Shown piece after piece: positions 1,879 to 19,300 of a DNA stretch of 33,154 bases (position 1 is its first letter; each line of letters starts with the position of its first letter). This DNA comes from a bacterium (GTDB taxonomy: Bacteria > Lernaellota > Lernaellaia > JACKCT01). A model generated the notes under the pieces. That model had not been told where the DNA came from. It saw only the letters and a list, made by a program, of their open reading frames with translations, and searched no databases. Made by a program: the position numbers and the translations under genes. The stretch lies in NCBI GenBank assembly GCA_019912885.1, contig JAIOHV010000109.1:1-33154 (forward strand). The letters run 5' to 3'.

Positions 1879-1944
1879 AGCGCTTTGCTCAGGATGACGA
1901 GCGCTTCGCTCAGAATGACGAGCGCATTGCTCAGGATGACGAGC
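1861..1944. repeat. Four tandem 21-bp units (GCTTCGCTCAGGATGACGAGC type)
   Basis: Units at 1861-1881, 1882-1902, 1903-1923 and 1924-1944 share GCTCAGGATGACGAGC with one or two substitutions each. The array continues from the right arm of the adjacent inverted repeat. The last unit runs into the 3' end of the minus-strand crotonase gene, encoding its final Ser-Ser and TGA stop. Confidence 0.9.
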
Positions 1945-2758
1945 CGCCATCCCTTTCCTTCACCGCCTGCTGAAAGCCGACCTCCTCGCAGCGTTGTTTG
2001 AACGCGACGCCTTCGGGCGTGTGGCGCGCGATGCCGTCAAAAAACGTGGCGAGGATCTGCGTTGAGGCAAGGCCCATGTTTTCGTAGGCCTGATTGACGA
2101 CAAGCTTTTGCATCATCAGTTGATTGACCGGCACGCTCGCGATGCGCGCGGCAAGCGCGTCCACGCGCGCGTCGAGACCGGCTTCCGGCACGGCTTCGCC
2201 GACAAGCCCCATCGACGCGGCCTCGGCGCCGGTGACGAGATCGCCCGTCAGCAAAAGGCGCTTGGCGCGTTCGGCGCCGACGCGATACACCCACATCGCC
2301 GTCGTCGGGCATCCCCACAGCCGCGCGGGCGGATAGCCGATGCGCGCGTCGTCGGCCATGACGACAAGATCGCAGCAAAGCGCGATGTCCGACCCGCCGC
2401 CCACGGCGAATCCGCGCACCGTCGCGATCGTCGGCTTGGCCGAGCGCCACAGGCTCATGAAGGAAAGCGTGTTGGCGTGCATCATCCGGAAATCTTTCGT
2501 CGGATCCCACGGCATCGCCTGAAAGCCCTCGTGCGTTCCCGGCGTTTCCGCCCAGATCTTCAGATCGTAGCCCGCGCAGAACGCGCGGCCGGCGCCGGTC
2601 AATACGACGACGTGCACGGCGTCGTCGGCGTTCGCGCGTGCGACGGCGTCGGCGAGCATGCGCGGCATGTCGCGGTCGATGGCGTTAAGTTGAGCGGGGC
2701 GATTGAGCGTGATGCGCGCGATGCGATCGTCGCTCTCGTACAAAACGGAATCGCTCAT
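1931..2758 (-). CDS. Enoyl-CoA hydratase/isomerase (crotonase) family protein, atypical active site
   Basis: A 275-residue crotonase-fold protein, last gene of the 7885-to-1931 cluster. The CoA/oxyanion-hole motifs are AFCAGYDLK (residues 59-67) and FAVGGGSDIAL (117-127). At the two positions that hold catalytic glutamates in rat mitochondrial hydratase, this protein has Asp124 and a YPP stretch (142-144). The exact reaction may therefore differ from classical hydration; isomerase or other crotonase chemistry is possible. ATG 2758 is favoured because GAGGAG sits 5 nt upstream; a GTG at 2764 overlapping the upstream TGA (GTGA) is the alternative and would add two residues. The C terminus SSS and the stop codon come from a 21-bp intergenic repeat, so the native end was probably altered. 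Confidence 0.85.
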   Translation of the reverse strand: MSDSVLYESDDRIARITLNRPAQLNAIDRDMPRMLADAVARANADDAVHVVVLTGAGRAFCAGYDLKIWAETPGTHEGFQAMPWDPTKDFRMMHANTLSFMSLWRSAKPTIATVRGFAVGGGSDIALCCDLVVMADDARIGYPPARLWGCPTTAMWVYRVGAERAKRLLLTGDLVTGAEAASMGLVGEAVPEAGLDARVDALAARIASVPVNQLMMQKLVVNQAYENMGLASTQILATFFDGIARHTPEGVAFKQRCEEVGFQQAVKERDGGSSS

Positions 2759-2760
2759 CG

Positions 2761-3618
2761 TCACTCCTCGAAGGCGCCGCCGCGGCCGCGCCCCGCGCGA
2801 AACGCGTCGAGACCCTGTCCGATCTCGTCGGTCGCGAGCGATTCGGCGCCGTGGCGGAATTCGTTTTTCGTCGCGCGGTCAAACGGCAGATCCCATTGCT
2901 CGATCGCGGACATGCGATCGCCGCGCATGCAGGTTTGGGGAAACGCCGCGATCCGCCGCGCCAGATTCTCGGCCTCGGCGCGCGCCGTGCCGTCCGCGAC
3001 GACGCGGTTGGCGAGCCCGAACGCGAGCGCCTCGCGCGCGGGCACGCCGCGCCCGGGGAGGATCATGTCCATCGCGCGCGAGTGACCGATCAAACGTGGC
3101 AGGCGGACGGTGCCGCCGTCGATGAGCGGCACGCCCCATCTACGGCAGAACACACCGAACACGGCGGATTCTTCCGCGACGCGCAGATCGCACCAGAGCG
3201 CCAGCTCCAGTCCGCCGGCGACGGCAAACCCGGCGACCGCGGCGATCACGGGCTTGCCGAGCACCAGGCGCGTCGGGCCGAGCGGGCCGTCGCCCTCGAT
3301 GTCCGCGACGTTGCCGGTGTCCGATCCCATCGCCTTCAGGTCCGCGCCCGCGCAAAAGTTTCCGCCCTCGCCGTACAGCACCGCGACGCGCGCTGCGTCG
3401 TCCGCTTCGAACGCGCGAAACGCCAGCGTCAGCTCGCGGGCCGTTGGGCCGTCCACGGCGTTACGCCGGTCGGCGCGATCGATGATGACGGTGTAGACAG
3501 GGCCGTCGCGTTCGACGCGGACGGATGAAGTCGACCCGCTCCCTGACGGTCGCGGTTCGTCGTGGAGAGACCCGCTCCCTGACGGTCGCGGTTCCAATTT
3601 TTGGGACTCGTCCGTCAT
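2761..3618 (-). CDS. Enoyl-CoA hydratase (crotonase) family protein with repeat-derived N-terminal insert
   Basis: 285 residues. The crotonase core runs from about residue 32 to the end, with oxyanion-hole motif NFCAGADLK (87-95) and FAVAGGLELAL (131-141). The first catalytic Glu is kept (E138), but the second position falls in VFCRRWGVPLIDG, typical of a broad 'crotonase' subgroup rather than classical hydratase. ATG 3618 overlaps the TGA of the upstream kinase gene as ATGA, indicating translational coupling. Residues 9-29 are two copies of EPRPSGSGS, encoded by two 36-bp-spaced copies of a dispersed DNA element also found in glnE. Expected role: hydration (or isomerisation) of the enoyl-CoA made by the ACAD encoded upstream; this is inferred from context. 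Confidence 0.87.
   Translation of the reverse strand: MTDESQKLEPRPSGSGSLHDEPRPSGSGSTSSVRVERDGPVYTVIIDRADRRNAVDGPTARELTLAFRAFEADDAARVAVLYGEGGNFCAGADLKAMGSDTGNVADIEGDGPLGPTRLVLGKPVIAAVAGFAVAGGLELALWCDLRVAEESAVFGVFCRRWGVPLIDGGTVRLPRLIGHSRAMDMILPGRGVPAREALAFGLANRVVADGTARAEAENLARRIAAFPQTCMRGDRMSAIEQWDLPFDRATKNEFRHGAESLATDEIGQGLDAFRAGRGRGGAFEE
3533..3594 (-). repeat. Two intragenic copies of a 25/26-bp dispersed element (EPRPSGSG coding)
   Basis: Copies at 3533-3558 and 3569-3594, 36 bp apart, have the minus-strand sequence GAACCGCGACCGTCAGG continuing to AGCGGGTC. A third, identical over 25 bp, is at 16951-16975 in glnE. Here the element is read as Glu-Pro-Arg-Pro-Ser-Gly-Ser-Gly. The insertion sits in a flexible N-terminal linker before the crotonase fold and preserves frame. 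Confidence 0.9.
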
Positions 3619-4685
3619 ACGCCGCCTCCCGCAATGACGCGGCGCGCGGCGTCGTCGAGCATCTTGACGACGTGAACGAGCATCGCGAAGCGCGCATCCT
3701 TCGTCTGGCCGTGGAAGAATCGGTAATAAATCTGCTGGGCAATGACGCCCAGGCGAAACAGGCCGAACACGTAATAGAACTCCAGGTCGTGCAGTGCGCG
3801 CCCGGTGCGCGCGGACCACGCCTCGCAAAGCTCGCGCCGCGTAAACATGCCGGGCAGGTGCGTGGGGAGCCAGCGCGTCATGAGTTGTTCGTCCGGATCG
3901 TCGGCCTGCACCCAGTACGCGAGGCTCGATCCGAGATCCATCATCGGGTCGCCGATCGTCGCCATCTCCCAGTCCAGCACGCCGATCACGTCGAGCGTTT
4001 GCGGATCGAGCACGACGTTGTCGAACTTGTAATCGTTATGAATGAGGCAGGGATGCGTCGTGTCCGGCGGCTGATTGGCGCCGATCCACGCCATCACCTC
4101 CTCGCAGCCGGGCGCGTCGGGGGTGCGCGCATCGCGGTAGCGCCGACTCCATCCCTCCACCTGCCGGCGCACGTAGCCTTGCGGCTTGCCGAAATCGCCA
4201 AGGCCGATCGCGGCGTAATCCACCTCGTGAAGCTTCGCCCACACCTCGACGAAGCGCTCGCAAAGCCGCCGCGCGGAATCGGCCGACAGCTCGAAACCCT
4301 TCGGCGGATTGGCGCGAAGGATGATGCCCTCCACGCGCTCCATCACGTAGAACGGCGCGCCGATCAGCGTCTCGTCGTCCGTGTAGGCAACGGGCCGCGG
4401 CGCTTGCGGAAATACGGGATGCAGCGCGGCGAGCACGCGGTACTCGCGGCTCATGTCGTGCGCCGTCTTTGCCTTTTTGCCGAATGGCGGGCGCCGCAAC
4501 ACGAACGTTCGGTCATCGAACGTAAGCAGGTACGTCAGGTTCGAGAACCCGCTGGGGTACTGCGTTACGCGAAGCTCGCCCGCAAGATGCGGCAGGTGAT
4601 CGCGCAGGAACGACGCGACACCCGCGGTAACAAGCTCCTCGCCGGCGCGCACGGGTTTGGCGCGATCGACAAACGGCGCGCTCAT
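3615..4685 (-). CDS. APH/choline-kinase-like phosphotransferase (ACAD10/11 kinase-domain type)
   Basis: A 356-residue protein-kinase-fold small-molecule kinase. It has the nucleotide loop SGFSNLTY (residues 46-53), the catalytic-loop motif HNDYKFDN (216-223; D218 catalytic, N223 metal) and the metal-binding DWE (238-240) in VIGVLDWEMATIGDP. This subgroup matches the kinase domain fused to the dehydrogenase in ACAD10/ACAD11, and LvaA of Pseudomonas levulinate catabolism, which phosphorylate the 4-hydroxyl of 4-hydroxyacyl-CoA. ATG 4685 overlaps the ACAD stop as ATGA, and its own stop overlaps the next start as ATGA, so three genes are translationally coupled. The assignment to 4-hydroxyacyl-CoA is inferred from this tight pairing. 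An aminoglycoside-resistance role is unlikely. Confidence 0.88.
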   Translation of the reverse strand: MSAPFVDRAKPVRAGEELVTAGVASFLRDHLPHLAGELRVTQYPSGFSNLTYLLTFDDRTFVLRRPPFGKKAKTAHDMSREYRVLAALHPVFPQAPRPVAYTDDETLIGAPFYVMERVEGIILRANPPKGFELSADSARRLCERFVEVWAKLHEVDYAAIGLGDFGKPQGYVRRQVEGWSRRYRDARTPDAPGCEEVMAWIGANQPPDTTHPCLIHNDYKFDNVVLDPQTLDVIGVLDWEMATIGDPMMDLGSSLAYWVQADDPDEQLMTRWLPTHLPGMFTRRELCEAWSARTGRALHDLEFYYVFGLFRLGVIAQQIYYRFFHGQTKDARFAMLVHVVKMLDDAARRVIAGGGV

Positions 4686-5881
4686 TTCGCCATCCCGTAC
4701 CGGCGCAGCGTGCGGCGCGCGAACGATTCCTTGTGCACCTCGTCGGCGCCGTCGTAGATGCGCGCGGCGCGCTCGTGGCGATACCAGTGCGCGAGGATCG
4801 TGTCATCCGTGACGCCAAGCCCGCCGTGCACCTGGATCGCGCGATCGACGACGCGCTGCAGCACGTTCGCGACGTGGAACTTGATGAGCGATACCTCGTC
4901 GCGCGCCTCCTTCTGGCCGATCTGCTCGATCTTCCACGCCGCGTGCAGCACCATCCAGCGCGCGGCTTCGATCTCGGCGGCGGATTCGGCGATCCATCCC
5001 TGCACCATGCCCTTGGTGCCGAGTGGACGGCCATCCGGATGGATCGGGCGCTTTGCCGCGTAGGCGCACATCATTTCGTACGCGCGTTTGCAGATGCCAA
5101 GCCAGCGCATGCAGTGGTGGATGCGGCCGGGCCCCAGGCGTTCCTGCGCGATGGCAAAACCGAACGCCTCTCCGCCGAGTGTGTTCGTGCGCGGTACGCG
5201 GCAGTTTTCGAATTCGACTTCTCCGTGCGAAAACGGCCCGCCGCCCGCGTGGCCCATCACCGGAATGTTGCGCACCAGGCGATAGCCGCGCGTGTCCGTG
5301 GGCACGAGGATCATCGACGCGCGCGTGTAGATCGGCGCGTCGGGGTGCGTGATCGCCATGACGACGCAGAACGCGGAGCCGTCCGCGCCGGTGGTGAACC
5401 ACTTGCGCCCGTTGATGACCCAATCGTCGCCGTCGGCGACGGCGGTCGTGCTCAGCATCGTGGGATTCGAGCCGGGGTTCTCCGGCTCGGTCATGCCGAA
5501 GCTGGAGCGAATCTCGCCGGCGACGAGCGGTCCAAGCCACCGCGCCTTCTGTTCGTCGGTGCCGAACGTGTGGAGGATCTCGACGTTCGCCGCGTCCGGC
5601 GCCTGGCAGCCGAAGACGTAGTGCCCGAGCGGTGTGCGGCCAAGCTCCTCGGAGACGAGGCCGTGCGTCACGAGGCCAAGGCCCATGCCGCCATGCTCTT
5701 TCGGATGCGGCGGCGCCCACAGGCCAAGCTCCTTTACGCGCTCGCGTTTTTCGTCCAGCAGGCGCAAGGGATTTTCCGTCCCTGCGAACGCGCGCGTCTC
5801 GAACGGAATCAAATCCTCGTCCACGAACGCGCGGACGCGGGCGAGCAGGTCGCGCGTCTGGCTGTCGATCGAAAAATCCAT
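4682..5881 (-). CDS. Acyl-CoA dehydrogenase family protein, ACAD10/11-like
   Basis: 399 residues, full-length for the family. Visible motifs are FGMTEP (128-133, flavin/substrate region), WVINGRKWFTTGA (154-166), and VHGGLGVTDD (351-360). The position of the catalytic base in medium-chain dehydrogenase (IYEGT) reads IYDGADEVH here, placing Asp377 there; ACAD11-type proteins also have a DG..DEVH motif at this site. In mammalian ACAD10/11 and in LvaC the domain removes phosphate from 4-phosphoacyl-CoA rather than performing simple dehydrogenation. The gene begins 10 bp downstream of the histidine phosphatase gene and overlaps the kinase gene by 4 bp. A conventional alpha,beta-dehydrogenation role cannot be excluded from sequence. 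Confidence 0.9.
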   Translation of the reverse strand: MDFSIDSQTRDLLARVRAFVDEDLIPFETRAFAGTENPLRLLDEKRERVKELGLWAPPHPKEHGGMGLGLVTHGLVSEELGRTPLGHYVFGCQAPDAANVEILHTFGTDEQKARWLGPLVAGEIRSSFGMTEPENPGSNPTMLSTTAVADGDDWVINGRKWFTTGADGSAFCVVMAITHPDAPIYTRASMILVPTDTRGYRLVRNIPVMGHAGGGPFSHGEVEFENCRVPRTNTLGGEAFGFAIAQERLGPGRIHHCMRWLGICKRAYEMMCAYAAKRPIHPDGRPLGTKGMVQGWIAESAAEIEAARWMVLHAAWKIEQIGQKEARDEVSLIKFHVANVLQRVVDRAIQVHGGLGVTDDTILAHWYRHERAARIYDGADEVHKESFARRTLRRYGMAK

Positions 5882-5891
5882 CGCCGTCCCC

Positions 5892-6590
5892 CTAGAGAAA
5901 GGTCACCAGCCGCGGGTCGCGCGCGTCCTCGAGATGCGCGACGTTGTTGAACTCAAGCAGCGTCATCGAATCCTCGCGGAAACGATAGGTCGTGACCGAC
6001 ATGTTGCGCACGTTGGTGCCAAGCAGGATCGCCGCGGTATCGGAAAGTCCGAGCGCCATCTGCATCGACAGCCCGACGGGCCCGCCGGAGGTGACGATCG
6101 CGATGCGCCGCCCGCGTCCCTCGGCCTGCATCACCGCGTGGATCGCCCCGGCGACGCGGTCGCGGTATTCCGCAAAACGTTCGACGCCCGCGATTTCGTG
6201 ATCGCCGGATGCCCAGCGTGAAAGGCCCGTTTGGAGCACGCGGGCCAGGGCGCGGCGGTCGGCGAACATGTTCTCGATCGCCTCGGCGTAAAGGGGATCT
6301 TCCGCGACGATCGCCTCGGCCTGCGCGCGGATGATCGTAAACGTGTCGTGCTCGTTGAAGCGCGGATCGGTGAGAAGCGGCGTCGCGTGCGATTCCTCCA
6401 TGGCGATTTCGGCGGAACGCATCTGGCGGTCGAGCGTGCCGGAGAGCCACACGTCGATGGCGACGTTACGCTCGCGAAAACGTGCGCCGAGAAGGCGCGC
6501 CTGCTCCTGGCCGATCGGCGAGAGCACGTCGTAGCTGCCTTGGCCGGCGAAGCTCGCCTGTCCGTGGCGGATGATGAGGAGTTCGGACAT
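5892..6590 (-). CDS. Histidine phosphatase family protein (branch 1, phosphoglycerate-mutase-like), second His absent
   Basis: 232 residues. The N-terminal LIIRHGQAS contains the R8-H9-G10 phosphohistidine motif, followed by QMRSAE (Arg58) and FNEHDTF (Glu80 region). Where most members have a second core histidine in a SHGG motif, this protein reads IVTSGGPVG (165-173), so that His is replaced. Some bacterial paralogues share SGGP, so this may be a subgroup trait. It is the first gene of the compact block, 10 bp before the ACAD. By position it might act on a phosphorylated acyl-CoA or acid intermediate, as the HAD phosphatase domain fused to ACAD10 might; that is inference only. Confidence 0.85.
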   Translation of the reverse strand: MSELLIIRHGQASFAGQGSYDVLSPIGQEQARLLGARFRERNVAIDVWLSGTLDRQMRSAEIAMEESHATPLLTDPRFNEHDTFTIIRAQAEAIVAEDPLYAEAIENMFADRRALARVLQTGLSRWASGDHEIAGVERFAEYRDRVAGAIHAVMQAEGRGRRIAIVTSGGPVGLSMQMALGLSDTAAILLGTNVRNMSVTTYRFREDSMTLLEFNNVAHLEDARDPRLVTFL

Positions 6591-6633
6591 GGGTTAGGCC
6601 TGATCCCGTGCGCGTGCCCGTGTCCGATGGCGA

Positions 6634-7032
6634 ATGCGCGAATGCTGGGGCGTGGCCGACCGCGCACTCCGCTTCGCTCCGTTTGCGGCCCTGACATCGC
6701 AAGCGGCCCTGACATCGCGAATGCGCCAATGCCGGGTCGTGGCCGACCGCGCACTCCGCCTCGCTCCGTTTGCGGCCCTGACATCGCAAATGCGCCAATG
6801 CCGGGGCGTGGCCGACCGCGCACTCCGCTGCGCTTCGTTTGCGGCCCTGACATCGCGAATGCGCCAATTCCGGGGCGGTATCGACCGCGCACTCCGCTTC
6901 GCTCCGTTTGCGGCCCTGACATCGCGAATGCGCCAATGCCGGGTCGTGGCCGACCGCGCACTCCGCTTCGCTCCGTTTGCGGCCCTGACATCGCAAGCGG
7001 CACTGACATCGCAAACGGCACTGACATTGCGA
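6634..7032. repeat. Composite tandem array: five 69-bp units plus three 18-bp units
   Basis: 69-bp units start at 6634, 6721, 6790, 6859 and 6928, each beginning ATGCGC(C/G)AAT and ending GCGGCCCTGACATCGC(A/G)A. Unit 1 is followed by one extra 18-bp piece (6703-6720), and unit 5 by two (6997-7014 and 7015-7032). The 18-bp piece, GCGGCCCTGACATCGCGA with variants, is the same as the 3' end of the 69-bp unit. Both lengths are multiples of three, so long spurious reading frames run through the array on both strands. It fills the 452-bp gap between the SDR and phosphatase genes and contains no gene I can support. Confidence 0.9.
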
Positions 7033-7042
7033 ATCCTCGACA

Positions 7043-7885
7043 TCACAATCCCACCAGCTTCGCGCTTTCGTCCCACAGGCGCGCGTCGTCGGCGTCGTCA
7101 CGCGCGGTGGGGTAGAGCGTCGCCTCGCGGCACTTTGCGAAATATTTTCCCGTCACCCCCTCCGCTTCCGGCGAGCTTGCCAGGTAGATCTGCGTCTTCG
7201 CGCCTTCTTCCGGCGAGATGAGAAAGACGCGATCCGCCACCGCGGTCAGGGCGTCCATCCACCAGCTCTTGCCGCGCGTGATGTTCGTGGAGATGCCGCC
7301 CGGGTGCAGGCTGTTCGAGGTCAGCACGTCCGGCGAGTTTCTCCGCGCCAGCTCGCGCGAGAACATGATGTTCGCGATCTTGCTGCGCCCGTAGGCGACG
7401 GGGCTCTTGTAGCCATTGTGAAATTGCAGGTCGTCGAAGTCGATGCGCGAGAGGCGGTGCAGGCGCGAGGCGACGTTGACGACGCGCGCCGGCGCGCCCG
7501 CGCGGATGTTATCGAGCAGGAGGTTCGCCAGCAGAAACGGCGCGAGGTGGTTGACGCCGAAGTGCTTCTCGAAGCCATCGCGCGTCTCCTCGCGTTTTGG
7601 CGACCACAGGCCCGCGTTGTTGACGAGCACGTGGATTTTCGGAAAGCGCGCCTTGATATCCGCCGCCATGCGTCGCACGTCGTCGAGCGATTCGAAATCG
7701 CCCGCGGCCGCGTGAAGGCGAGCGGCGTCGCGCGCGATGTCGTTGATCGCGCGCCGGGCTTTTTCTTCGGTGCGGCCGTGCACGATGACCGACGCGCCCA
7801 TGCTGTGCAATTCGCGCGCGGTGACAAATCCGATTCCGCTTGTCGCGCCGGTCACCAGAACGACGCGCCCCGTCATGTCCGACAT
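7043..7885 (-). CDS. Short-chain dehydrogenase/reductase (retinol-dehydrogenase-like SDR)
   Basis: 280 residues. Classical SDR features: cofactor motif TGATSGIG (12-19), NNAG (89-92), catalytic Ser140 in VNVAS, and Y165xxxK169 (YGRSK). An Arg at position 38 (VHGRTEEK) after strand 2 suggests NADP(H). ATG 7885 is chosen over the upstream ATG 7915 because AGGGG lies 5 nt before it. The gene reads toward the histidine phosphatase/ACAD cluster but is separated from it by the tandem-repeat array. In Pseudomonas levulinate catabolism an SDR (LvaD) interconverts 4-oxo- and 4-hydroxyacyl-CoA, so a related redox role is plausible here; the retinol-dehydrogenase-like subgroup makes the substrate uncertain. 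Confidence 0.88.
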   Translation of the reverse strand: MSDMTGRVVLVTGATSGIGFVTARELHSMGASVIVHGRTEEKARRAINDIARDAARLHAAAGDFESLDDVRRMAADIKARFPKIHVLVNNAGLWSPKREETRDGFEKHFGVNHLAPFLLANLLLDNIRAGAPARVVNVASRLHRLSRIDFDDLQFHNGYKSPVAYGRSKIANIMFSRELARRNSPDVLTSNSLHPGGISTNITRGKSWWMDALTAVADRVFLISPEEGAKTQIYLASSPEAEGVTGKYFAKCREATLYPTARDDADDARLWDESAKLVGL

Positions 7886-10106: not shown

Positions 10107-10204
10107 CGCGAATTTTTTCGATCCGCCTCCCGCGAATTCGAGTATATTCGCCCCTCAACATTTCGATCGGACAGGCGGGCTTGCGGCCCGAATGGAGGTG
10201 CGAT

Positions 10205-11800
10205 GTGAGGCGTTTTCGATTTCTGGTGGCCGGACTGTTGCTTTTCGCCGCGAGCGGCGCTGCGGCTGACGACGACGCGGGCGACTTCGATTTCGAGGGA
10301 TCGCTGTATCTATCGAAATTGAACCCCGAACTCGCGGCCGCTTTCGAGAATTTCCACGCAACAAGCATCAGTAACGGCCCCGCCCGCAACCCCTTGTGGG
10401 TCGGCTTTTATGGCTACGGGCAGGGCGGCTACGCCGCGGGCGCCTTCGGCGTCGACGATGCGACGAACTTCGACGGCGGCGAGGTTTCCGATCTGATTAC
10501 TTTTGTCGATCCGGCCTGGGCCGGGCTTTTTTCCGTCACCGGAATCGCCGGCGGCGGGGTCGGATTCACGGGATCGTTTGGCGGCGACTTTTTCACCGGC
10601 GTCGATCCGGGCGAGTCCGCGCTCGAAGGCTTCACCGTGAATTTCAACCTAAACGATCAATTCGGATGCGGGCTCCGGGTTCTGGCCGTGAACAATACCC
10701 TGTGGGCCACCGGTTATGCCGTCGACGACGCCTTTGGCGAAAACGCCTTCCTGGGCCGCATCGCGGTCGACAGCCCGTCGTTGACCGCCCAGTGGGACTG
10801 GACGAAGACCTGGAAGGCCTCGGACGGCGGCCACACGCGCGGATTGCACCTTCTGCCCAACGGATCCGGGGCGATCGTCGCCGGTTCCGTCCTGACGCCG
10901 GGCCTCCAGGCGGGCGGCTTCGTGAAAGGATTTGACGAGTTCGGCGGCACGACGTTCAGCGTCGAATACCTTCCCGACGGAACCGAGAACGAAATTCTCG
11001 TCGATTTCTTTCCCGGGCCGGAAGGCGAGGCGCACCTTCTCTACAACGAATTCGATCTCGGCTCGTTTCAGACGTCGAAGGTCTATATCGTCGATCCGCA
11101 GAATCCGGGCGATCCCGTTTCCGGCTGGCCGGCGTGGGATGACGAGTCGTCCGACCGGCTCCTCGGCGGCGACTATTCCCCCGGGTTCGATTTTGTGGAA
11201 CCGCGACGGTATTTCCTGGGCGCGCGGCTTGCGTTCAAGTCCGCCGGCGAGGAAATCGTCCTGCGCGCGTACGATGAGGACGGCGACGAGGCGGGCTCGT
11301 TTACGAAGCTCGCGGCGCAGGGAGACGACGCCGTACTCGCCGATGTCACGGCGTATCGCAACCTGGTCGCGGTCTCGAATCTTGTGACGCCCGCGGACGA
11401 CCAACTCGACGTAGAAGTTTACGTCGCCGACATGGCCGTCGCGTCAGGTGATGCGAAGGAGGAAATCGTGCCGCGTACGCTCGAGGTCTCGAAGGATATC
11501 TTCGGAGACGACACCGACGTGGGCGAGTCAAGCGCCATGATGGCGTTTTCGGATACCGGGCTCCTGTACGTGGTGATCGGTTACGACGACGGCGACGGCG
11601 CCGCGATCGTCACGGCGCGATACACGGTTCCGCTTCTTACGGGCGGCGACGACGACGACGACGCGGACGACGACGACGCGGATGACGACGACTCTGACGA
11701 CGACGGCGCGGGCGACGACGATGACGACGATGACGACGCCACCCACGACGACGACGGTGGTGATGATGACGACGACGACGACGGCTGTTGCGGGTGTTGA
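10205..11800 (+). CDS. Secreted protein with Asp-rich, Cys-terminated tail (function unknown)
   Basis: 531 residues. The GTG start at 10205 is set by GGAGGTG four bases upstream. The signal peptide is MRRFRFLVAGLLLFAASGAAA, with cleavage expected before DDDAGD. The body (about 30-480) is rich in Gly, Asp and aromatic residues in a repetitive beta pattern, suggesting a beta-propeller-like fold, but I recognise no family. The last 50 or so residues (from about 481) are almost pure Asp with a few Ala, Ser, Gly and His, ending GCCGC. The tail may bind Ca2+ or act as a surface spacer, with the terminal cysteines a possible attachment site; this is inference. A TATATT word at 10143-10148 could be a -10 element, but no good -35 is visible. 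Confidence 0.8.
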   Translation: MRRFRFLVAGLLLFAASGAAADDDAGDFDFEGSLYLSKLNPELAAAFENFHATSISNGPARNPLWVGFYGYGQGGYAAGAFGVDDATNFDGGEVSDLITFVDPAWAGLFSVTGIAGGGVGFTGSFGGDFFTGVDPGESALEGFTVNFNLNDQFGCGLRVLAVNNTLWATGYAVDDAFGENAFLGRIAVDSPSLTAQWDWTKTWKASDGGHTRGLHLLPNGSGAIVAGSVLTPGLQAGGFVKGFDEFGGTTFSVEYLPDGTENEILVDFFPGPEGEAHLLYNEFDLGSFQTSKVYIVDPQNPGDPVSGWPAWDDESSDRLLGGDYSPGFDFVEPRRYFLGARLAFKSAGEEIVLRAYDEDGDEAGSFTKLAAQGDDAVLADVTAYRNLVAVSNLVTPADDQLDVEVYVADMAVASGDAKEEIVPRTLEVSKDIFGDDTDVGESSAMMAFSDTGLLYVVIGYDDGDGAAIVTARYTVPLLTGGDDDDDADDDDADDDDSDDDGAGDDDDDDDDATHDDDGGDDDDDDDGCCGC

Positions 11801-16327: not shown

Positions 16328-19300
16328 ATGACCGACATCGCCGAGATCGCGCGCCGACTGCTTGCCGGCGAGCCGACCGGCGATCGCGTATTTGCGGCGC
16401 GCACGCGCGACGATCTGGCGCGCATCCGCGCGACGGGGCGCGACGTGGAGGCGGCTCTCGCGGCCGCGCTCGCCTCGTTCGATCCGCCGCGCGCGCTGAC
16501 GGGGCTCGCCGAGCTTGTCGATCATCCGCGCGTGGAGGATCTTTTTGCCCCGGCGCGCCTATCGCGCCTCGCGATCCTCGCGGGATCGAGCCCCTGGGCG
16601 ACGCACCTCGCGCGCGACCAGCTTCTCGACGTGCTCGACGGGCCGCCGCCGTCGGCATTCGTCGCGCATGCGACGCATCTTGGCGATGCCGAAAAGCTCG
16701 GCGAGGCGTCGGGGCTTTCGCCGCGGACGATCAAGGAATGGCGTGCCCTGGCACAGGCGCGCGCGGCCCTATTCGATCTGGCGGACGAGGGCGACGCGTG
16801 GGCCGCGCTTATCGAGCACACCGCGCCGGCGGAGATCGCTTGCGCGCTGGCGCTGGCGCAAGCCGCGCACGAGGCGAACGAGAGGTTCGGTGCACCGGCA
16901 GCAAGCGCCGATACCGGTTTCGCCGCCGATACTGGTCTCACCCGCGATACGAACCGCGACCGTCAGGGAGCGGGTTTCACCCGGCCCGTCGTCATCCTGG
17001 GGATGGGCAAGCTTGGCGGACGCGAGCTGAACGCGTCGTCCGACATCGACATCGTTTTCCTGTTCGGCGACGACGAAACGGAAACCGGCCACGGCACGTC
17101 GATGGTCGAGTGGGCCGGTTTCGTCGCACGCCGCACGTCCGACCTGCTCGGCCCGGACGGCGCGGGGCTTCGCGTCGATCTTCGACTTCGGCCCGGCGGG
17201 CAATTCGGCCCCGTCGCGTGCTCGCAGGCTCACGCCGAGACGCACTACGAACTCTTCGGCCAGGCGTGGGAGCGGCAGATGCTCGTGCGCACGCGGCCGG
17301 TCGCGGGAAATCTTTCGATCGGGCGCGGTTTCGTCGACGGCATCCGGCCGTTTGTCTATCGCCGTCACATGGACCCGCGCGCGCTCGCGGAACTGCGGCG
17401 GATCAAGCGGCGCATCGACGCGGAGGTGCTCGTCGCGGCGGGCGGGGACGAGAACGTCAAGCTTTCGCGCGGCGGCATCCGCGAGTTGGAGTACGTCGTG
17501 CAGACGTATCAGCTTCTCTACGGCGGACGCCTGCCGGCGCTACGCACGCCCGGTACGCGCGAGGCGCTCGCGCAGCTAGCGGCCAACGAACTTTTGCCCG
17601 CGGACGATCTTGCGACGCTGACGGACGCGTATCTCTTTTTGCGCCGCCTCGAAAACCGCATTCAGATGCTCGACGGCCGGCAGAATCACCGCATACCCGC
17701 CGGCGAATCGACACGCGACGCCCTCGCGCGAAGCCTTGGGCTCTCGAACGGCAAGGAGCTGATGCTGGCCTACGACGGCTGGCGTCGCCGCGTCGGCGAG
17801 ATATTCGATGCGCTTTTTGCACAGGCCGATGGCGCTTCCGAGGACGCACCGGCGCCGATGGCCGAGGCGCCCGTTTTGCTGGTGACGGCCGCGCGCCGTC
17901 GCGCCGAGCAGGAGTTCGCGGCTGTCGGGATTCCCGACCCCGCCGAGGCGTTCGAGATTCTGGCGAAGATTCACGACGAGCCGGCCACGCGCCCGTTGCC
18001 GGGCCTTGGCGCGTTGATCGAACGACTGGCGCCGAAGATCGCCCGCCTGGCGGCCTCCGCGCCGGATCCGATGGGCGCGCTGCGCGGTTTTGCGCGGTTC
18101 GTCACGAGCCACCAAGCGCCGATGACCACCCTCGCGATGCTCGCGGACGACGACAAGATGGCCGAGGTGCTGATCCGCCTGCTCGGCCGCGGCTCGTATC
18201 TGTCCGATCTCATGCTCGATCACCCGGAGGCGTTCGTGCCGCTGTTCGTCGCGCAGGACGTCTCCGGCGGGCCGGTCGAGGTGGAGCGCTCCGTCGTCGA
18301 CGGGGCGGGGGATGGCGACGAGGCCGCGCGCCTGTCCGCGATCCGCCGACAAAAGACGATCCTCGAACTGCAAATCGCGCTCGAGGAGATGTATCGCCCC
18401 GATGAGCCCGAAGCCGCCTGGACGCTCATCGCCGCGATGGCGCGCGGCGTGCTTCGCGCGCTCGCGCCGCTCGCCGCGGCGCACGCGGGCATCGACGCCG
18501 GTGCGCTTGGCGTTCTGCTTTTGGGCAGCGCCGGCGGCGGCGAGCCGGTCATGAACTCCGACATCGACCTCGTGTTTTTGTGCGGCGACGCCCAGGCGGT
18601 CGGCGAGACGACCAGGGTTGCGCGCCGCTTGTTACGCGAGCTCGAATCCAGATCCGGCGGCGGGCGCCTGTTTCGTACGGACGTGCGACTGCGTCCGCAT
18701 GGCGATCAGGGAACGCTCGTGTCCACGGTCGCGGCCGCTCGCGCCTTTTATCGCGATGCCGCGCCGGTCACCACGCGCCTCGCGCTGCTGCGCGCGACGG
18801 CGGTGTGCGGCGGGCCCGCGCGCGATCTCGTCGCGTCGTTCGACGACGTGCTTTTCGCGCCCGGCCTTCCCGGCGCGCGGGCGGCGGACCTTGCGCACAT
18901 CCGTGGCCGCGTCGTCGCCGAGACACCGGCGGGGCGGCTCGACGCGAAGACCTCTCCGGGCGGCCTGTCGGACATCGAGTTTCTGATCGGCGGCTTGCAG
19001 CTACGTCACGGCCGCGATTTCCCCGCGATGCGCGGAACGTTCGCCGGGAGCGCAGGCGTCCCGCCTGCTTCAAACGCCACGCGCCACGCGATCGCCGCGG
19101 CGGCCGAATGCGGTTTATTATCAAAAGCCGATGGCGAAACGCTCACGACGGCGGTACGCACGCTCAAGCGCATCGAAAGCGCCCTGCGTGCGCTTTATCC
19201 GCGGCCGGTGAGCCTCCTGCCCGCGCCGGGACACGAACTCGACATGCTCGCACGCATGGTCGGCGAAAAGAACGGCGCCGCGCTTGTGGCAATGTTCACC

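Follow-up and report, generated by a model that had tools for sequence, protein, structure and literature searches.

A histidine-phosphatase-like protein with a His-to-Ser change as a recurrent neighbour of a predicted bacterial 4-hydroxyacyl-CoA kinase

In the levulinic acid operon of Pseudomonas putida (LvaA, LvaB and LvaC), a kinase and an acyl-CoA dehydrogenase (ACAD) encoded by separate genes convert 4-hydroxyacyl-CoA to 4-phosphoacyl-CoA and then to enoyl-CoA. The pathway needs the 12-kDa protein LvaB, and the operon as described contains no histidine phosphatase. In mammals, ACAD10 and ACAD11 carry the kinase and the ACAD as fused domains, and ACAD10 is also paired with a degenerate phosphatase-fold domain, which has the HAD fold and is not a histidine phosphatase. 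Here we describe a locus on contig JAIOHV010000109.1 of a bacterium of the GTDB lineage Lernaellota; Lernaellaia; JACKCT01 (assembly GCA_019912885.1). The whole stretch of 33,154 nucleotides that was analysed is referred to as the window. As in P. putida, its kinase and ACAD are separate genes, to which the same two-step conversion can be ascribed by homology; in contrast to P. putida, the operon contains a histidine-phosphatase-like protein, named HP below.

All genes of the locus lie on the minus strand, and the transcription order is a short-chain dehydrogenase/reductase (SDR), HP, the ACAD, an APH-fold kinase and two crotonase-fold proteins (ECH1 and ECH2). An earlier note on this DNA had listed these six genes with their families on one strand, and profile matches agreed. 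HP (232 aa, 5892..6590) matched PF00300 with 72.5 bits and was further characterized by family alignments, a background control and an AlphaFold2 model. The ACAD (399 aa, 4682..5881) was assigned to the ACAD10/11-LvaC type from Pfam and PDB matches, an alignment and a comparison with other ACADs of the genome. The kinase (356 aa, 3615..4685; PF01636, 192 bits) was assigned to the LvaA/ACAD10-11 type from PDB matches, an alignment and a tree. Direct reading of the sequence also bore out the tight joints reported in the note. The ACAD and kinase genes overlap as ATGA at 4682-4685 (...AAATGAGC), as do the kinase and ECH1 genes at 3615-3618 (...GTATGACG), while ECH2 begins either at a GTG overlapping the ECH1 stop as GTGA or at an ATG 2 nt past it (GAGTGACGATGAGC). 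At the HP/ACAD joint, TAG is followed by 10 nt and ATG.

A partner of this kind had been thought undescribed, but this proved incorrect, because Habe et al. (2019, PMC6692424) reported a histidine phosphatase gene beside the lvaA and lvaC homologues that P. citronellolis LA18T carries in its levulinic-acid cluster. The authors suggested that the phosphatase may remove phosphate from 4-phosphovaleryl-CoA, and they noted the absence of lvaB (PMC6692424). In that levulinic-acid-induced cluster (PCLA_07f0390-0396), a histidine phosphatase family gene stands next to LvaA, LvaC and LvaD homologues, as HP does next to its partners here; its product has 218 aa and is a possible member of the HP family. 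No LvaB, LvaD or LvaE genes were identified between or beside the core genes of the window, LvaB not having been searched for by sequence. The new element here is the loss of the second catalytic histidine in the HP family. In the open-access literature, apart from the P. citronellolis report, we found no paper on such conservation, on the lost histidine, on a bacterial histidine pseudophosphatase or on HP with ACAD10/11.

Recurrence and active site of HP

The distribution of HP was assessed in 386 genomes, selected first for their relatedness to the window and then from the whole domain, with kinases scoring at least 360 bits counted as window-like. The HP subfamily was present in 16 genomes and the kinase in 23, with 11 genomes carrying both. 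In all 11 co-occurring genomes, which represent nine family groups, the two genes were neighbours, with starts 0.7-4.7 kb apart. The co-occurrence was strong (Fisher's exact test, p = 8e-12), although this value is a guide only because the sampled genomes are related. HP is thus a widespread recurrent neighbour of the kinase, in support of its reading as a partner in the earlier note. Five genomes carried HP without a window-like kinase, and in two of them (G054 and G319) HP lay at the extreme end of a contig. Two loci from one genus (L119 and L121, in G267 and G133) held a Ser-variant HP (FTSAGT) with no window-like kinase detected.

Among named genomes and plasmids, HP-kinase examples span Thermodesulfobacteriota, Myxococcota, Pseudomonadota, Spirochaetota, Bacillota, Deinococcota and Actinomycetota. 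The gene order reads HP-kinase-SDR-ACAD on an annotated Caballeronia plasmid, ACAD-kinase-HP-SDR on one from Azospirillum, and ACAD-SDR-SDR-kinase-HP on those from Deinococcus, where kinase and HP overlap, and Streptomyces; Sulfitobacter has HP-kinase. The linkage is therefore beyond chance, with the trio of HP, kinase and ACAD found again in other lineages. Conservation of gene order in relatives, named as a test in the earlier note, spoke for its reading where HP, kinase and ACAD are concerned: the three genes recurred together, although in shuffled order and with HP optional. Along the kinase tree, the presence of HP changes no fewer than 17 times. The distance matrices of kinase and HP were correlated across 34 loci (Mantel r = 0.46, p = 2e-4). 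Long open reading frames at four loci (L051, L080, L023 and L031), considered as natural kinase-HP fusions, were rejected, each holding a single Pfam domain.

The catalytic cluster of the histidine phosphatase superfamily consists of two histidines and two arginines, in PGAM5 H105, H230, R104 and R152 (PMC5501728). HP shares its fold with the branch 1 enzymes PspP, PhoE, PGAM5 and CobC, and it keeps the nucleophile motif RHG (R8, H9, G10), the second arginine (R55) and an invariant acidic residue after strand 3 (E80). The second catalytic histidine, in contrast, is replaced by serine (S168 in TSGGP, where relatives have vSHGG), as assigned from sequence alignment and secondary structure. Serine, in TSGG or a variant of it, occupied this position in 65 of the 65 family members in which the region is present, whereas ordinary branch 1 proteins, drawn from the same and from further genomes with spurious reading frames left out, all kept histidine (24/24). 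An apparent histidine variant, AHAG at locus L088, was a false regular-expression match; the protein has FTSGG. In the HP family, a His-to-Ser change has therefore removed one of the two histidines needed for the canonical catalytic cluster.

In the AlphaFold2 model of HP (mean pLDDT 94), S168 directly follows a strand, as the histidine does in relatives. The best structural matches of the model are active phosphatases, namely PspP (4ij5, Foldseek E = 3e-11), PGAM5 and PhoE.

Signature residues of the dehydrogenase and the kinase

The 4-phosphoacyl-CoA in mouse ACAD11 lies amid R626, H634, R637 and the catalytic D753; substitutions at R626, H634 and R637 abolish the ACAD step (PMC12440821). 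ACAD11 structures were among the best PDB matches of the window ACAD, in which R248, H256, R259 and D377 align with these four residues. They sit in ERLGPGRIHHCMR and YDGADEVH, with R253 and H256-C257-M258-R259 present. The aspartate of the D-G..DEVH motif, singled out in the earlier note, is accordingly in place as D377 and corresponds to D753. The other seven ACAD matches in the genome scored at most 197 bits, against 780 for the window ACAD. All seven lacked HHCMR and had glutamate instead of the aspartate where the motif could be matched (e.g., YEGTSEIQ). Among ACADs from the collected kinase loci, HCMR was present in 58 of 63, and 55 of these 58 had the matched aspartate.

In the kinase, D218 and N223 align with D220 and N225 of ACAD11, the catalytic Asp and Asn of the PKL fold. 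By our reading of the alignment, the CoA-contacting R86 and R176 have their counterparts in R80, which adjoins the canonical Glu, and in R174. PDB matches of the kinase were 9o56, 3dxp and the ACAD11 kinase domain. By its residues the kinase resembles LvaA and ACAD10-11 and may be regarded as a candidate orthologue. In a tree computed without LvaA, it grouped with 9o56, on a branch that includes neither the ACAD11 kinase nor 3dxp nor three plasmid kinases.

At the sequence level, the catalytic residues of both proteins are thus those of mammalian ACAD10 and ACAD11, in agreement with the ACAD11/LvaC kind proposed in the earlier note, although the genes are separate here and the kinase falls on another branch. 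Because the ACAD has the phosphoacyl-binding residues and the kinase the matching catalytic ones, their assignment as a split LvaA/LvaC-like pair is well supported, with 4-hydroxyacyl-CoA as the predicted substrate.

Accessory genes, neighbours in relatives and dispersed repeats

The two crotonase-fold proteins are not conserved with the HP, kinase and ACAD core and appear as accessory members. ECH1 (2761..3618) is PRK08259/EchA5-like (NF006108, 403 bits with the cut-off at 273; EchA5 homologues in PDB), and ECH2 (1931..2764) is PRK08272-like (NF006128, 403 bits with the cut-off at 257; PDB 3njb). Canonical enoyl-CoA hydratases use two catalytic glutamates, Glu144 and Glu164 in the rat enzyme. 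ECH1 keeps the first (GGLELAL) and has VFCRRWG at the second site; ECH2 has GGSDIAL and GYPPARLWG at the two sites, and the canonical pair is absent. The idea that the crotonases feed the product into beta-oxidation is consequently not shown, both because the glutamate pair is missing and because the genes do not travel with the core.

The N-terminus of ECH1 contains a direct-repeat insert of two exact 26-bp copies (3533-3594) encoding EPRPSGSGS, which makes the exact start of the gene uncertain. The 26-bp element resembles a dispersed repeat that entered the beginning of the gene without shifting its frame. At 16951-16976 lies a third copy, which has one mismatch.

The SDR (7043..7885, PF00106) is retinol-dehydrogenase-like. 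Between it and HP lie ~450 bp occupied by a tandem repeat array of 69-bp period (6627..7027, no strand assigned). The units of the array belong to a repeat family scattered over the genome, for which 88 matches were counted on numerous contigs. No similar SDR was found next to related kinases in the kinase loci compared. Given this spacer and the lack of a counterpart, the SDR is a doubtful member that probably lies outside the unit, contrary to its inclusion in the operon by the earlier note. Elsewhere in the window, an open reading frame at 10181-11800 contains a long run of CGA triplets (11647-11783), which encodes an Asp-rich C-terminus (DDDDADDDD...).

In relatives, other genes accompany the core. 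About a dozen loci (L013, L025, L029, L030, L048, L061, L075 and others) had EtfB/EtfA-like genes in divergent orientation next to HP-ACAD-(TetR)-kinase, and the EtfBA families F14 and F15 were each found at 11 loci. Many Pseudomonas loci (L043-L098) combined HP, a sterol-carrier-like SCP2 protein of ~104 aa, the kinase and an SDR, with an ACAD11-like ACAD (58-60% identity) elsewhere in the genome. When Pseudomonas genomes were searched with ACAD11, LvaC-like ACADs were found, none of them beside a window-like kinase and HP. In the P. aeruginosa group, a single Ser-variant HP was present in each of 25 genomes.

Possible roles of HP and competing explanations

Phosphatase folds with altered active sites offer precedents for HP. 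The HAD domain of ACAD10 lacks the second Asp of the DxD motif and has negligible phosphatase activity; mutating this domain raises kinase output, and a restraint on build-up of the phospho-intermediate was proposed (PMC11342911). Flea salivary histidine-phosphatase-like proteins that lost both catalytic histidines became binding proteins (PMC10728186), whereas HP has lost the second only. On the strength of these precedents, we rate regulation or holding of 4-phosphoacyl-CoA by HP somewhat above true hydrolysis. The earlier note had likened HP to the ACAD10 HAD domain, and the comparison is apt in that both look degenerate; plain recycling by a phosphatase, which it also envisaged, is uncertain because the second catalytic histidine is absent in every family member.

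With moderate confidence, we consider HP, the ACAD and the kinase (3615-6590, minus strand) to form a 4-hydroxyacyl-CoA catabolic unit in which HP acts as the partner of the kinase. By homology, the kinase would phosphorylate the 4-hydroxyl of 4-hydroxyacyl-CoA, and the FAD-containing ACAD would then oxidize the 4-phosphoacyl-CoA transiently, expel the phosphate and reduce the product again, so that a 2-enoyl-CoA becomes available to beta-oxidation. HP, with its phosphate-binding pocket kept and the second catalytic histidine lost, would be a dedicated kinase partner. Most likely it would sense or hold 4-phosphoacyl-CoA, either restraining the kinase or passing the intermediate on, and hydrolyse it slowly at most.

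Several observations weigh against this interpretation. HP was absent from 12 of the 23 kinase-bearing genomes, and with about half of them lacking it, HP must be optional. The window kinase lies off the ACAD11 kinase branch, beside 9o56, and its substrate specificity may therefore differ. EtfBA genes accompany the cluster in relatives, although a redox-neutral ACAD reaction should not need them. Both chemical steps, phosphorylation and phosphate elimination, are predicted from homology together with their substrate, and the regulatory or binding role of HP is likewise a prediction; catalysis may have survived although one histidine is gone.

It is possible, if rather doubtful, that the pathway is the same and HP works as a true phosphatase with an altered mechanism, clearing dead-end or excess 4-phosphoacyl-CoA as a form of metabolite repair. 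The nucleophilic histidine, both arginines and the glutamate are invariant, the fold matches that of active phosphatases, and the conserved Thr-Ser at the altered site could assist catalysis. Clearing a 4-phospho intermediate would also be useful, and ordinary beta-oxidation has no need of it. However, the second histidine, canonical in the superfamily, is missing from the entire family, and the comparable HAD domain of ACAD10 proved to be no phosphatase. Habe et al. (2019) placed such a protein in the forward pathway, removing phosphate instead of the ACAD, with the gene beside lvaA and lvaC homologues and no lvaB found. For HP we regard this as very improbable, as hydrolysis would merely regenerate the hydroxyacyl-CoA, the ACAD retains the complete set of phosphate-elimination residues, and many kinase-ACAD loci have no HP.

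The EtfBA and SCP2-like neighbours would be compatible with a different acyl-CoA or with net oxidation. Instead of simple 4-hydroxy fatty acids, the kinase and ACAD might subject some other acyl-CoA that is hydroxylated or contains a ring, such as one derived from a sterol side chain or an aromatic compound, to the same phosphorylate-and-eliminate chemistry. The divergent kinase branch, the SCP2 gene in Pseudomonas loci, the addition of EtfBA or a 3-hydroxyacyl-CoA dehydrogenase in many loci and the non-canonical crotonases of the window would fit such a substrate, but the HCMR/Asp signature is fully retained and nothing observed points directly to another substrate, so we hold this to be unlikely. 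Least credible is an ordinary acyl-CoA dehydrogenase operon in which an unrelated APH kinase and a phosphatase cluster incidentally: all three families are large and common, yet the diagnostic residues and the recurrent adjacency across phyla speak against it.

If HP is a kinase partner that holds or senses the phosphorylated intermediate, a broader proposal can be put forward tentatively, as plausible though short of probable: in the widespread HP family, bacterial 4-hydroxyacyl-CoA kinases would have a regulator or carrier of their own, a convergent counterpart of the degenerate HAD domain of ACAD10. Two unrelated phosphatase folds would then have independently become partners of one kinase type. 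In mammals, it was not until 2024-2025 that 4-hydroxy acids were assigned a route through kinase plus ACAD, and the function of the phosphatase-like domain of ACAD10 is so far a proposed one. The observations made here caution against annotating genes of the HP family simply as phosphatases, and the family offers a tractable system for studying the cellular control of a phosphorylated acyl-CoA intermediate.

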